NCBI RefSeq assembly: GCF_018736065.1 | Contig: NZ_CP076128.1 | Location: forward strand, 2,480,001 to 2,544,000 | Length of the DNA stretch: 64,000 bases | DNA from: Flammeovirga kamogawensis | GTDB lineage: Bacteria > Bacteroidota > Bacteroidia > Cytophagales > Flammeovirgaceae | Reading direction: 5' to 3' | Part shown: in pieces, positions 2,813 to 9,033 of the stretch | Position numbering within the stretch: position 1 is the stretch's first letter | Layout of the letters: the number at the start of each line of letters is the position of its first letter | Position numbers and translations under genes: made by a program | The notes under the pieces: model-generated | Databases searched by the model: none | What the model was told of the DNA's origin: nothing | Seen by the model: only the letters and a program-made list of their open reading frames with translations

Positions 2813-3931
2813 TTATTTCAACCATTTCTTAGCACACCATTTTCTTACAGGTTCATCATAAAACTTAACAGCTACGTAAGCTACAGCAATGGATACGACA
2901 AATGTAACAACACCCCAAACTGCAGCTACTTCATAAGATGTTTTACCTGTAGCTACATTATCTACAACCCAAGCTGTAAATACATAAATAAATGCATAAT
3001 GAGTGATATAAACTGGATAAGATATATCTCCTAAAAACTTGGCTAACTTTCTCGTTTTCTCAGATTTTATATCTCCATTAGCACCTATATACACAAGTAA
3101 TGGAAATACAATTAAGATTACTAAACCTTCATATAACCCATTTATCCAATTAATGTCTCCACCTAACCTTGGTAAGGCTAAAACTACAAACATGAGGATA
3201 CTTGATAACAAAAATGCATTTTTAATATAAGTTGGTTTCATTATTCTAGACAATAATAAACCCGATAAAAATGGGTACAACAAACGTGTAAAACCAATAC
3301 GTAGTTGTTCTGGATCTAAAGACCAACCTCCTGCTACTCCACCTTGAGGTGTTGTTACTGTAAATTGAATTAATGCACAACCCGCTATGAAAGTGAGTAA
3401 CATTAAAGTCTTGTTAGATAATTTTCTTAATACAAAGGCATATAGTGCATAAGCAATGTACTCAAAGAATAATGTCCAACCAGGACCATTTAATGGATAC
3501 ATTTCTCCCCAACCTCTGATATCTAAAGACTTGCCAACGGGAATCATTGTAAAGCCAATTACCATAACTAAAAGCATTTTAGTTACAGGTGTATTTTCTA
3601 TAATAGGAAATAATGTTGGCGATGCCTGAAAATAATATGTTGCAGCTCCAAGTATAGAACCAATAATTACCATTGGTTGTAAACGGATTATTCTTCGTTT
3701 AAAAAAGCCACCAAGTGTCATTGTATCCCAACGGTTATTATAAGCTATGCCAATTACAAAGCCAGACAATACAAAGAAAAAATCTACTGCTAAATACCCG
3801 TGGTTAATGATCTGTTCTTTATGTTTTCCTAAAGCGAAGGCTTCTAAAATATGAAAAGCAACTACAATAATGGCAGCCACACCTCTTAAGCCATCTAAGA
3901 TTTCGTAATGTTTGTTAGAAGGTTGATTCAT
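2813..3931 (-). CDS. acyltransferase family 3 membrane protein (OafA-like)
   Basis: A 372-residue integral membrane protein. The N-terminus carries the acyltransferase-3 signature: LDGLRGVAAIIVVAFHI with Arg16 and the catalytic-type His27, then HGYLAVDFFFVLSGFVI. About ten hydrophobic segments follow, including a PLNGPGWTLFFEY motif. Family members transfer acetyl or other acyl groups to surface sugars. The substrate here is unknown. The start lies 41 bp after the response regulator stop with no terminator between, so it is probably the last gene of the two-component operon. A role in surface-glycan modification under that control is inference. Confidence 0.85.
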   Translation of the reverse strand: MNQPSNKHYEILDGLRGVAAIIVVAFHILEAFALGKHKEQIINHGYLAVDFFFVLSGFVIGIAYNNRWDTMTLGGFFKRRIIRLQPMVIIGSILGAATYYFQASPTLFPIIENTPVTKMLLVMVIGFTMIPVGKSLDIRGWGEMYPLNGPGWTLFFEYIAYALYAFVLRKLSNKTLMLLTFIAGCALIQFTVTTPQGGVAGGWSLDPEQLRIGFTRLLYPFLSGLLLSRIMKPTYIKNAFLLSSILMFVVLALPRLGGDINWINGLYEGLVILIVFPLLVYIGANGDIKSEKTRKLAKFLGDISYPVYITHYAFIYVFTAWVVDNVATGKTSYEVAAVWGVVTFVVSIAVAYVAVKFYDEPVRKWCAKKWLK

Positions 3932-3972: not shown

Positions 3973-4593
3973 TTAAAACATGTCTTTTCTCATATTGTAT
4001 TTTATTAATTCTACAGTAGACGATATTTTAAGTTTTGCTTTAATATTTCGTTTATGAGACTTAATAGTTTCTTCTGCTATAAACATTTCTTCAGCAATTT
4101 GCTTACTAGTAAGTCCCTCACAAATATAATCTAGAACTTGTTCTTCTCTTAATGATAAGACGTTTTCCGTTGCTTTTACTTCTTCAAAATGAGTTTCTAT
4201 TTTTTCTGAATAAAATTTACGGCCATCCATTATCTTATGTATTGCATTTACAAGGTTCTCTTCAGAGTCATCTTTTAAAATAAACCCTTCAATTCCTAAG
4301 CTTTTGATCTTTTTAGTGAAAGAATACTTATTGTGCATAGAAATCATAAGAACACGCAAGTTAGGGTGTTTCATCTTTGCCAACTCTACCAGCTCAATAC
4401 CATTCATTTCAGGCATTTGGATATCAGAAATTAGCAAATTATACTTAGTAATATCTGTTGCTAAAAACTTTTTAGGCGATCCAAATACATCTACCTTTTT
4501 AATTAAAGGAAAGTAGATATTAATCAATTCTATCAATCCTTTTAAGAATAGATTATGATCATCAACAAGAGCAATATTTATATTATTGTTCAT
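3973..4593 (-). CDS. NarL/FixJ-type response regulator
   Basis: A 206-residue two-domain regulator. The receiver domain (1-120) has Asp11/Asp12, the phospho-acceptor Asp57 in LLISDIQMPEMNG and Lys107 in FILKDD, all expected residues. The C-terminal LuxR-type HTH (about 142-205) contains LSLREEQVLDYICEGLTSKQ and AEETIKSHKRNIKAKL. It starts 2 bp after the stop of the kinase-like gene at 4596-6377. It is the obvious phosphorylation target of the two kinase-like proteins upstream. Regulated genes are not apparent, although the acyltransferase downstream is a candidate. Confidence 0.93.
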   Translation of the reverse strand: MNNNINIALVDDHNLFLKGLIELINIYFPLIKKVDVFGSPKKFLATDITKYNLLISDIQMPEMNGIELVELAKMKHPNLRVLMISMHNKYSFTKKIKSLGIEGFILKDDSEENLVNAIHKIMDGRKFYSEKIETHFEEVKATENVLSLREEQVLDYICEGLTSKQIAEEMFIAEETIKSHKRNIKAKLKISSTVELIKYNMRKDMF

Positions 4594-4595
4594 CT

Positions 4596-6377
4596 TTATA
4601 AAGGTATTTGAATAAGGATAGCAATCCCTCGTTTAGTATTAATTTTATGAATGCCTGATAGAATTTGAATTCTATATTTTACATTTTGAATTTCTCTATC
4701 TATATCTTCTGTACTCGCAAATTTTAGAGTACTATTGTCCAAGTAACTAATTAATAATTTCTCCTTCTCTCGAGATATTTCTAGATCAACTCTAGTTGCT
4801 TTAGATATAATTGGCAATACAGTATACATCTCCTGAATAATTCTATAGATATGGTGAAAGTTGGTTTCTGATGTATCTATCTTTCCATCAATATGATGCG
4901 TAAATGTATAATGTGTAGACGAAGTAGACATTTTGAGAGCCAATTCTTGTAGTTCATCTAAGAAGTATTCCTTTTCTAAATTAGGAGTGACAAGGTTATG
5001 CGATAGCTCTCGAACATTAGATAAGGTATTATCCAATATTGGTTGTATATCATTATCTTGATTTTTCATTTTCATGAACGAAAGATTACCACCAATTCTA
5101 TCATGAATATCCCTGCCTATTCTATTCCGTTCATTTTCCTGACTATCTACAATCGTTTGTATATGTTTTAACTGATGTTCTTTTTCTATATTCTGTAGTT
5201 TTTGATAATTCTTGATGGTATCCAACCATTTCATAATAAGAATATAAATTATAAAGGCACTAATTAAAACAGCATTAAAGTAGCTAATAACATTAGTATA
5301 AAAGCTCCTTTTCATAATACCAAAATGAGGTACTGCCACAAACAAAAAGAACGTAACCATTATAAAAATATACAACGATAAAGTGATTTTACTAAATGGC
5401 TTTTTCTCTTTTAAAGCAGGAATAATCATATTCAATAGAATTAGATTTGCGTACCACCAACAGTATAAAATTACACCAACAGTTGTTAAGGTATTAATCC
5501 AAAAATTATAAGGGTAGAAAAAAGAAACTATATATAATGCTATGAGTAGAATGTTTACATGAAGTATATACGGTAATACTTCTTTATCCTTTTTATCTGT
5601 AAGAGAATATTTAAAATATTGGCTAAGACCATATACTCCTACTTGATTTACTATAATTCTTAAAAGATAACTAAAATCTGCACCTCTAAAATCTAAAAGT
5701 CCTAAAAAATTACCACTTTCAATCTCAGAAAATAACGAGAAACCTAAAGAGTACAATAGCACTCCAAAGTATGCCTTATCTTTTGTGATAAAACCTAAAA
5801 CCAACATACCCAATGCTAACAAAATACTTAGTGTTCTAATTATAAGAAACACCTTATCTCTTGTAGTCGATAGTTGTTTATATTCTGTGGTATCATATAG
5901 TTTAGCAAAAGTAGAAAGTGCCCCTCCGTAACCATTTATTTCTAAGTAGAGTTCTTTTGTTTCTCCTTCTTTAAAATATAATGGAATCGCATTATCTGTT
6001 TTACCCTTTGTTACGGTAGTACTAATATCATATTCTTTTAAATCGTCTGAAATAGAAGAAGATACATATATTTTTCCGTAAGGAATTAATACATAGTTTA
6101 AAGAAAAAAGTTTTTCTATTTCTTTATTTGAATAGAATTTTGCCTTAAACCACATTTTTTGATGAAAAATAAAGAAGCTCAAGTTACTATTTGATATAGT
6201 TTTCCATTGAACACTAGTATCTGACAGTACTTGTGTAAGGTTAATTTCTTCTTCAGTTTTTTCGAAGAAATAGGCTAAATCGTCATTATTTACAGCATTT
6301 ACATCATAAATTTGTTGACAAAATGCAAGTTGCACACACGATAAAGTGACAAGGATATACAGTCCTATAATTTTCAT
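4596..6377 (-). CDS. 7TM-DISM histidine kinase-like protein with intact His but degenerate ATPase domain
   Basis: A 593-residue protein: signal peptide (1-20), extracytoplasmic beta domain (~22-165), seven hydrophobic segments (~175-390, 7TMR-DISM layout), a short coiled coil, then a HisKA_3 dimerisation region. ERNRIGRDIHDRIGGNLS holds the phospho-accepting His425 in perfect context. The C-terminal ATPase domain is broken at every nucleotide-binding box. The N-box Asn is replaced (QEMYTVLPIIS, Val520). The G1 box reads YLDNSTLKF, with Asp547 kept but the glycines gone. The G2 GxG is replaced by DREIQ. It should not bind ATP in the usual way. It is a sister of the next gene upstream, which has the opposite defect. 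Confidence 0.9.
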   Translation of the reverse strand: MKIIGLYILVTLSCVQLAFCQQIYDVNAVNNDDLAYFFEKTEEEINLTQVLSDTSVQWKTISNSNLSFFIFHQKMWFKAKFYSNKEIEKLFSLNYVLIPYGKIYVSSSISDDLKEYDISTTVTKGKTDNAIPLYFKEGETKELYLEINGYGGALSTFAKLYDTTEYKQLSTTRDKVFLIIRTLSILLALGMLVLGFITKDKAYFGVLLYSLGFSLFSEIESGNFLGLLDFRGADFSYLLRIIVNQVGVYGLSQYFKYSLTDKKDKEVLPYILHVNILLIALYIVSFFYPYNFWINTLTTVGVILYCWWYANLILLNMIIPALKEKKPFSKITLSLYIFIMVTFFLFVAVPHFGIMKRSFYTNVISYFNAVLISAFIIYILIMKWLDTIKNYQKLQNIEKEHQLKHIQTIVDSQENERNRIGRDIHDRIGGNLSFMKMKNQDNDIQPILDNTLSNVRELSHNLVTPNLEKEYFLDELQELALKMSTSSTHYTFTHHIDGKIDTSETNFHHIYRIIQEMYTVLPIISKATRVDLEISREKEKLLISYLDNSTLKFASTEDIDREIQNVKYRIQILSGIHKINTKRGIAILIQIPL

Positions 6378-6402
6378 TTGTTGTTGTTAGTAAAGTAAGT
6401 TT

Positions 6403-8175
6403 CTATAATAGATTATTAGTAACTGGAATGTTAATTTCCACATACAACCCAGAAGATGAATTAATAGTCATCTCTCCAGTTAAAGCAGTCACCCTTTGTT
6501 GTATATTTAATAAACCAATTCCACTTTTATTATTTTTTTCAGACAGTCCTTTGCCATTATCACGATACGTAAGTAGTACATTTTCTTCAGATAACTTAAT
6601 TTCTAAATGTACTTGTTTGGCAAAGCTATGTTTCACAGCATTCACAAATAATTCTTGAATTATACTATATAAATTTTCTAAATCATCATATTTTAATGGT
6701 AGAGAATCTGTATTAGTAGTAAAGTCAAATTTCATGACTGTTGTAGAAAATCTAGAAGTAAGTTGATTTACTTGAATTATCCAATTTTCCTCTTTAAAAT
6801 TCATCTTTTTTAAAGAATAGGTCATTAATTTAAGTTCATCTAGGGTTTCTTGAAGCACCTCAGAATGTGCTAAAGTTGTCTGTTTTAATTTTGTATCTAA
6901 AAGATTTAAATCGTTTGTAATTTTTTTCTGAATTTCTTTCCCAATAGCATTTCTTTCGGCTTCTTGACTATCTAATATTGCTTTCAGGTATTCTTTCTGA
7001 AACTTCTCTTCTAATTTAGTTAACCGCTTGTTTTCTGTATTAACGGTATATACTTTCAATAAAACCATACAAACCATTACAACAGAACTTATTATTCCAT
7101 CAGAATAAAGATAAAATGCAGAAAAGTAATTTTGTGATAACACACCAAAGTAAGGAGTAACCACAAACAGTAGAAAAAAGCTAACAATTAAAAAATAGAA
7201 GAAAGTACTTAAATCAAAATTCAGAATTCTTTCTTTATTTATAATCTTATAAGATGCTACGATTATAAAAATTAAGATTAATAGTATGGCTATTGTATAT
7301 GTTAAACTCACAACCATAGGGTATTGAGAAAACAATAAATAAATGATTTCAATAGCTATAAATACTACATTAAAATATTTACCTACATTTCCTTTTTGTT
7401 TACGATCTTCCAAAAACAAAAGGTCTCTCAAAAAATAGAAAAAAGAAACAACGAGTGCATGAGCAGCTACTATTTTAAAGAAATAGCTGATATCTAATCC
7501 ATTCAAAGAAAATAACCCTAATAAACTGCCTGATTCTACCTCAATAAAAAGAAATGCACCTAATAACGCAATTACAAAGTTGCTATACATCTTATCCTTT
7601 AAAGAATAGAAAAGTACACTACCTATCAAAATAAAAACAACAAATACAGTCCTCATTATCAAACCTAGATTTGCATTCACTTTATTTTTGGCTGCTACTA
7701 CTTCAGATGAAAGAATTTCTGGATTACTAGACGTTAAAGTTCCATACCCATATACTCTATAATAAATTTCTTTTACCTCACCTTTTATAAATTTCAAAGG
7801 AATTCCTCTTGCTCGGTGATTATCCGCTACAACTGTACCCATATGTACAACAGACCAATTTTGAGTAACTGATGAGAAAATATACACATCTAAACTAGGC
7901 GTCATTTTATAACTAAATGCAAGTACTTTCTCTTGCTCTAAAGAAGACGTTAATGTAAATCTATACCACTTTGCTGTAGAAAAAGGTACTACGGTATATT
8001 TATCAAACGGTAATTTATTCCAAGTAAAACTATTTGGGTGTAGATACACATTTGTAGTAGTACTCGAAGTAACTTCTACAAAATCATCAATTAATTCTGA
8101 TGAAGAAATATCAAAAGAGGGTTGCCCCCAACATAAAGAAAAGGGTAAAAGGATAATTAAAAGTGAAAGTTTCAT
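6403..8175 (-). CDS. 7TM-DISM histidine kinase-like protein with intact ATPase domain but no phospho-His
   Basis: A 590-residue sister of the preceding entry with the same layout: signal peptide, extracytoplasmic sugar-binding-like domain, seven transmembrane segments, coiled coil, HisKA_3, HATPase. The ATP-binding boxes are complete: N-box ELFVNAVKHS (Asn512), G1 YRDNGKGLS (Asp539) and G2 SGIGLLNIQQRV. The His box is destroyed: ERNAIGKEIQKKITNDLN has Gln416 where His is required and Lys instead of the following Asp. The ATG at 8175 is preferred over a GTG three codons upstream because the signal peptide begins there. The spacing of 25 bp to the sister gene indicates one operon. Confidence 0.9.
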   Translation of the reverse strand: MKLSLLIILLPFSLCWGQPSFDISSSELIDDFVEVTSSTTTNVYLHPNSFTWNKLPFDKYTVVPFSTAKWYRFTLTSSLEQEKVLAFSYKMTPSLDVYIFSSVTQNWSVVHMGTVVADNHRARGIPLKFIKGEVKEIYYRVYGYGTLTSSNPEILSSEVVAAKNKVNANLGLIMRTVFVVFILIGSVLFYSLKDKMYSNFVIALLGAFLFIEVESGSLLGLFSLNGLDISYFFKIVAAHALVVSFFYFLRDLLFLEDRKQKGNVGKYFNVVFIAIEIIYLLFSQYPMVVSLTYTIAILLILIFIIVASYKIINKERILNFDLSTFFYFLIVSFFLLFVVTPYFGVLSQNYFSAFYLYSDGIISSVVMVCMVLLKVYTVNTENKRLTKLEEKFQKEYLKAILDSQEAERNAIGKEIQKKITNDLNLLDTKLKQTTLAHSEVLQETLDELKLMTYSLKKMNFKEENWIIQVNQLTSRFSTTVMKFDFTTNTDSLPLKYDDLENLYSIIQELFVNAVKHSFAKQVHLEIKLSEENVLLTYRDNGKGLSEKNNKSGIGLLNIQQRVTALTGEMTINSSSGLYVEINIPVTNNLL

Positions 8176-8390
8176 ACAGTACACAATAGTAGTAGCTCAA
8201 ATTTGTTCAATTGATGTATAGAAAACAAGCATTTTATATATATGCCGACAACAATGTGCATTTTCTGTTATAATTGAACCATTTCCTTATTAATTATATT
8301 TACTACTTCAAAAAAAATTAGGCTGTGCAAACTCATTATTTCGAATTACTAGAAATAATCCGATTGTTATTAATATTATATTAAGAATAT

Positions 8391-8452: not shown

Positions 8453-8977
8453 CTAGTCGTTATCACATTCTAATTCCCATTGATACTGTCCATCATCTTC
8501 TCTATCCCAACGGCAATTTCCAGGATCGAAAGGAGGTCTTCCTGTACCATTATCTCTACATTTTAATTCCCATTCATTATCATCATTATCCCATACGTAA
8601 TCGCATAAAGGGCTTGGAGATTCAGGTCTATCCGGACGTTGTCCTCCAATATTTCTGTTATCATCACATTCTCTTTCCCAATGTTGGTCATCATTATCCC
8701 ATTCCCAATGGCAACCTTCTGGCAATTGAGTTGTTGGTGGCACATTTGGATTTGTATAACGCCCATTTCCACTTCTGTTTCTGTTATCACATTCTGTTTC
8801 CCAATGATGATCATCTGCATCCCATTTCCAATAACAACCTTCACTTAATGGGGTAGTAGGTTTTGGAGGAATCCCATTTTCATTGCTATCGTCATCGTCA
8901 AAATTGCAAGAAATAAATAACGCGCTTAATAATGTTGTTATAGTAATTAAGCGAAGTAACGTGAATAGATTTTTCAT
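8453..8977 (-). CDS. small acidic lipoprotein with four W-D-x-D-D repeats
   Basis: The start is placed at the ATG at 8977, where a lipoprotein signal begins (KNLFTLLRLITITTLL, then LFISC). A longer frame from 9013 only adds 12 polar residues. The mature part (about 150 residues) is four copies of a ~20-residue unit of the form C-x-W-x-W-D-x-D-D-x-x-W-E-x-E-C: CYWKWDADDHHWETEC, CHWEWDNDDQHWEREC, CDYVWDNDDNEWELKC and CRWDREDDGQYQWELEC. Pro/Gly/Asn linkers separate them. Each unit starts and ends with Cys and carries an Asp cluster, which suggests small disulphide-closed, possibly cation-binding modules. I do not recognise the family. It lies downstream of the winged-helix regulator gene on the same strand. 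Confidence 0.75.
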   Translation of the reverse strand: MKNLFTLLRLITITTLLSALFISCNFDDDDSNENGIPPKPTTPLSEGCYWKWDADDHHWETECDNRNRSGNGRYTNPNVPPTTQLPEGCHWEWDNDDQHWERECDDNRNIGGQRPDRPESPSPLCDYVWDNDDNEWELKCRDNGTGRPPFDPGNCRWDREDDGQYQWELECDND

Positions 8978-9033
8978 AACTTTTTTGTTTTTGTTTATGA
9001 TACAAATATTCACCTTTCATTCTCCTTATAGAA

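Follow-up and report, generated by a model that had tools for sequence, protein, structure and literature searches.

Sister sensor kinases with complementary active-site losses in Flammeovirga: a predicted obligate heterodimer

Gene duplication is thought to yield complementary loss of function between copies, and for dimeric enzymes such loss can reach separate halves of an active site. This prospect is raised by a locus in Flammeovirga kamogawensis, from whose 6.97 Mb genome we analysed a stretch of 64,000 nucleotides (NZ_CP076128.1, positions 2,480,001 to 2,544,000; hereafter the window). Two adjacent sister genes encode histidine kinases, termed A and B, neither of which is catalytically complete. 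Can such proteins signal, and if so, how? We consider it likely, from the residues that each has kept, that A and B form an obligate heterodimer: B would phosphorylate A in trans, and A would serve the neighbouring response regulator.

All four genes are on the minus strand, transcribed in the order kinase B, kinase A, response regulator and membrane acyltransferase (table 1), with 25 bases between the stop codon of B and the ATG of A, and 2 bases between the stop codon of A and the ATG of the regulator. The coordinates and residues that the initial annotation gave for both kinases are right. So is its account of a regulator 2 bp downstream with all active residues: the DD, D, S and K positions are kept in all three aligned copies (the window and two relatives, G002 and Flammeovirga sp. 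OC4). With a receiver Asp and a GerE domain, this regulator belongs to the LuxR/NarL type. The same strand also carries, upstream of B at 8453-9013, the gene for a small protein with Trp-Asp-rich repeats (e.g. WDNDDQHWE) and a lipoprotein-like start, which has no Pfam match.

Table 1. Features of the kinase locus, in window coordinates.
Feature	Position	Strand	Remarks
Kinase B	6403..8184	-	Likely start ATG 8175; signal-peptide-like start; 7TM-DISM-like membrane part; orthologue B' in OC4
Kinase B, predicted ATP half	6403..8184	-	DHp with Gln for His; HATPase_c intact
CAG codon, Gln416 of B (ATG numbering), in place of the phospho-acceptor His	6928..6930	-	Followed by AAA, Lys417
HATPase_c domain of B, containing the N, G1 and G2 boxes	6406..6684	-	Pfam 4.6e-10, 40.3 bits, residues 501-589 (GTG numbering)
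Kinase A	4596..6377	-	Signal-peptide-like start; 7TMR-DISMED2 and 7TM part; orthologue A' in OC4
Kinase A, predicted phospho-acceptor half	4596..6377	-	HisKA_3 site His425-Asp426; ATP domain degenerate
CAT codon for His425 of A, the only phospho-acceptor predicted in the A/B pair	5103..5105	-	
Pseudo-ATPase domain of A, residues 481-593	4599..4937	-	No HATPase_c match; AlphaFold2 fold kept
Response regulator, receiver and LuxR-type DNA-binding domain	3973..4593	-	Response_reg 8.3e-18, GerE 2e-19 (Pfam)
Membrane acyltransferase, Acyl_transf_3	2813..3931	-	Pfam 4.8e-33; downstream of regulator

Kinase A (593 amino acids) carries the codons ATT-CAT-GAT, encoding Ile424-His425-Asp426. Its N-box region reads IIQEMYTVLPIIS, with Val instead of the N-box Asn and II instead of KH; in the G1 region, DNSTL, Asp547 is kept and the glycines are gone; and the G2 position reads DREIQ, as opposed to GIGLL in B. 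Kinase B (590 amino acids from the ATG at 8175, 593 from a GTG at 8184) has intact ATP boxes (IIQELFVNAVKHS, DNGKG and GIGLL), and at its phospho-site the codons ATT-CAG-AAA place Gln416 and Lys417 where the His and the acidic residue would be. Pfam profiles divide in the same way, HisKA_3 matching A (28.1 bits, cut-off 24) with no match in B, and HATPase_c matching B (40.3 bits, cut-off 26.4) with no match in A. Codons, boxes and reciprocal profile matches, including the profile check that had been proposed, thus agree with the earlier description of A as keeping its phospho-site and losing its ATP boxes, and of B as the reverse. Within the window's genome, a HATPase_c match lies within 500 bp of 8 of the 9 HisKA_3 matches, and A is the sole exception. 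The corresponding figure for OC4 is 10 of 12; the exceptions are A' and a kinase (G006:C97:127848, row L091) that, having visibly intact ATP boxes, is a profile miss. Judged by this pairing, the pattern in A and B is more than chance.

Profiles of the sensory parts give a mixed picture: 7TMR-DISMED2 (cut-off 22) is found in A (26.2 bits) and B' (22.1), with no match in B or A', and 7TMR-DISM_7TM (cut-off 29) gives only scores below its cut-off in A (16.4), B (21.4) and B' (19.8), with no match in A'. HisKA_3 proteins can carry a phosphatase motif with Gln five residues after the His, as described in passages of PMC5231405; this Gln is present in neither kinase, the position being Gly430 in A and Asn421 in B (window 6913-6930 spans the site in B). 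In B' it is Thr, and in 24 live paralogues it is Gly (22/24) or Ala (2/24).

A search for the same pairing in related genomes, which the initial annotation had proposed, succeeds in OC4. Contig NZ_JTAM01000022.1 carries B', A' and the regulator in the window's order, with full-length frames, at about 33% identity for A-A', about 33% for B-B' and 57% for the regulator. In B' the His is replaced by Asn and all ATP boxes are kept; A' keeps His-Asp and one G1 glycine but lacks the N-box Asn and G2. The Pfam matches are again reciprocal (HisKA_3 without HATPase_c in A', HATPase_c without HisKA_3 in B'), and in both species the ATP site and the phospho-acceptor are divided between two co-encoded proteins. 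Orthologues in which both the His and the ATP boxes are normal had been named as counter-evidence; the one other intact copy found shows the complementary split instead. A sequencing error at the His codon of B, also raised at the outset, was rejected as unlikely because that codon and the adjacent acidic codon are both changed and B' lacks the His too. The OC4 operon has a different neighbourhood: five flanking proteins of the window were compared, and none was found within 11 kb around it.

A maximum-likelihood tree of 44 proteins, with outgroups of eight kinases from the 18 matching genomes outside the genus and G012, unites A with A' (99/96), B with B' (100/95) and all four with one another (100/100). 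Since A pairs with A' and B with B', a single duplication preceded the species split; the half-losses would either predate that split or have occurred twice in the same sense. The predicted heterodimer is consistent with the orthologue comparison, a check that it could have failed, in two intact copies. The tree also shows that the pair evolves fast. Fast evolution is one point in favour of independent decay, by which both genes are being lost and their complementarity is a snapshot of random loss. Recent random decay is weakened by the occurrence of the same complementarity in OC4, where at about 33% identity the frames are open over their full length, and the catalytic residues that are retained are identical in both species.

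Decay of the locus is seen in a close relative, G002. Its regulator is 95% identical to the window's copy (dN 0.029, dS 0.66) and its acyltransferase 97% identical, and only remnants of both kinases survive: pieces from the 5' end of B (residues 3-87, 99-192 and 1-49) and, of A, the final 21 residues. The region (L089:6042-8300) is rearranged, with two stretches of the B 5' end about 2 kb apart and an acyltransferase-like frame between them; the second stretch is in frame with the last 21 codons of A and stands directly before the intact regulator. Because the regulator is retained without the kinases, the pair is dispensable in G002. These remnants count for independent decay; the loss of both kinases together also counts for A and B acting as a unit. 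Searches of six other genomes of the genus with A, B, the family profile and the regulator found no copy, so that among nine genomes the pair is intact in two and a remnant in one. Across 390 genomes of the order, with three candidates scored per genome, the profile gives matches at E <= 1e-50 in 28, including the nine of the genus and G012; tandem partners were inspected within the genus, and further pairs may exist outside it, among the other 18 genomes. A scan of named genomes confirmed 2 of 250 stretches, one in OC4 and the other, a weak match, in Labilibaculum.

Tandem arrays of this subfamily are common in the genus, and 8 of the 9 genomes searched (the exception is G002) have one in which one or more members are catalytically incomplete. 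In three species (G003, G007 and G008; loci L041, L047 and L046), a kinase dead in both halves stands before an intact member of the subfamily; the dead kinases of L041, L046 and L047 have Thr, Ser and Thr, respectively, at the His site and no ATP boxes. In G001, G005, G006 and G004 (L042, L043, L044 and L045), one to three intact kinases come first, and after them a kinase that has lost both halves and carries Asp or Glu in place of the His. None of these four loci yielded an orthologue of the window's regulator. Six of the seven doubly dead proteins were scanned, and they have neither a HisKA_3 nor a HATPase_c match. Among the genus arrays examined, complementary loss is confined to the lineage of the window and OC4. 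Seven tandem relatives without either half show that the family tolerates decay, which adds to the case for independent loss in A and B; weighed against the shared split in OC4, we regard that explanation as distinctly unlikely.

What each protein has kept can be counted. Consensus columns were taken as residues kept in at least 90% of the 24 live paralogues, the distant kinase L092 being left out. For DHp helix 1 (18 columns), A retains 13, A' 12, B 8 and B' 8; for the ATP domain (20 columns), A retains 10, A' 9, B 18 and B' 17. The seven doubly dead relatives retain 7-9 of 18 and 3-7 of 20, respectively. The protein-by-domain interaction (p = 0.0026 for A and B, 0.0058 for A' and B') and the ATP columns alone (p = 0.014 for A versus B, 0.019 for A' versus B') separate the proteins, with the reservation that the columns are not independent. 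DHp consensus columns alone do not (p = 0.18 for A versus B, 0.31 for A' versus B'). A cruder contingency test on retained counts only (p = 0.09 and 0.14) is superseded by the interaction test. Over both DHp helices, identity is 34/59 for A-A' versus 16/61 for B-B' (p = 0.0008, again from columns that are not independent), which would fit A as the regulator's partner; in the ATP domain, B-B' (41/113) is slightly above A-A' (31/110). A doubly dead pair, L041-L046, is equally alike or more so (45/113 in the ATP domain, 15/28 in DHp helix 2), so identity by itself is no proof of activity and the catalytic residues carry the argument. Those residues, as kept in each protein, are the ones that the predicted heterodimer would need.

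Another reading is a pair without kinase activity, whose role towards the regulator would be that of a phosphatase or a scaffold. Several arrays hold fully dead members common to at least two species; B and B' depart at His+5 from the Gly or Ala of live paralogues; and, according to passages of PMC5231405, the His is not needed for phosphatase activity in this class. Yet such a role needs neither His425-Asp426 of A, kept in A', nor the ATP boxes of B and B', and all of these are kept, which makes it highly improbable.

AlphaFold2 models of the cytoplasmic parts, built from four-sequence alignments, have a mean pLDDT of 85.1 for A and a weaker 76.1 for B (pTM 0.59), and both retain their long DHp helices as well as the ATP-domain fold. 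The modelled A thus carries a folded ATP domain without nucleotide residues. Foldseek places DesK chains as the best matches of both models; for the ATP domain, TM scores normalized by target length against VraS (4gt8) and DesK (3ehg) are 0.73 for both in A, and 0.80 and 0.77 in B. By sequence, too, the nearest solved structure is DesK (best 3ehf_A, 7e-12). Helix-bundle handedness decides whether phosphorylation occurs in cis or in trans. DesK of Bacillus subtilis, of the HisKA_3 class and the nearest solved relative of A and B by sequence and fold, phosphorylates in trans, and co-expressed inactive halves regained activity, as passages of PMC8301901 describe; its action in trans counts for the same in A and B. 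It differs from them in being a homodimer with both halves intact.

The proposed route can be set out as follows. One 7TM-DISM HisKA_3 kinase gene would have been duplicated in tandem, after which copy B would have lost the phospho-acceptor His and copy A the ATP site, with each remaining half presumably held by selection. The two proteins would heterodimerize via their DHp helices; B would bind ATP and phosphorylate His425 of A, and from A the phosphoryl group would pass to the LuxR-type regulator encoded in the same orientation. With ATP bound only on B and the acceptor only on A, phosphorylation in a mixed dimer would have to be in trans, and since a homodimer of either protein could not be phosphorylated, both sensors would be required for signalling, forming an AND gate by construction. 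A and B probably work, then, only as a mixed pair.

A different division of labour would make B an ATP-binding regulator without kinase action on A, with A served by another kinase. Intact subfamily relatives exist in the genus, for instance the paralogue G000:C1:4144577-4146397 as a candidate kinase for A, and DivL acting on CckA is a precedent for an inactive partner on a complete kinase in the part of PMC12189002 that describes it. That paralogue (L040), however, has an adjacent regulator of its own, and A and B are adjacent sister genes that occur side by side in both species and are both reduced in a third. We judge this arrangement unlikely. DivL/CckA and RetS/GacS resemble the A/B heterodimer in that a kinase works with a different kinase as partner, but there, in the same passages, at least one partner is complete; in A/B neither is.

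The closest parallel in principle is CheA3/CheA4 of Rhodobacter sphaeroides, neither of which is phosphorylated alone with ATP whereas the mixture is; as described in passages of PMC3591291, ATP binding and the phospho-acceptor reside on two proteins, as predicted for A/B. These are soluble chemotaxis proteins of the CheA class from which whole domains are absent, in contrast to the HisKA_3-type membrane sensors A and B, in whose models the DHp helices and the ATP-domain fold are both present and one active site each is worn. Half-kinases as such are not rare, given that 1,556 of 42,417 HisKA proteins had no recognised HATPase domain in the survey reported in PMC3591291.

Tandems L041-L047 of Flammeovirga share with A/B their subfamily and a catalytically incomplete partner, and differ in combining an intact partner with one that has lost both halves. 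When mutant CheA is complemented in the laboratory, two proteins with different defects reportedly regain activity in combination; that system was engineered, whereas A/B occurs naturally, in two species. Searches of open-licence literature yielded no natural pair like it. New with respect to known split kinases are full-length HisKA_3 membrane sensors that are duplication sisters, with opposite sites worn, in two species. We favour, as somewhat more likely than not, the broader view that A/B is a natural obligate heterodimeric sensor kinase and a non-leaky AND gate, in a genus whose 7TM-DISM kinases have repeatedly become heteromeric. If true, the pair would be a natural two-component-sensor case of the split known from CheA3/CheA4, an AND gate built into two membrane sensors, and a model of how kinases become pseudokinases, of which the genus arrays of intact and fully dead members show the next stage.

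A membrane acyltransferase gene stands 3' of the regulator in both the window and OC4 (L039:7869-8921), the Pfam families being different (Acyl_transf_3 in the window, HGSNAT_cat in OC4). The window's acyltransferase is possibly an operon member or a target, and the two enzymes may represent a common target.
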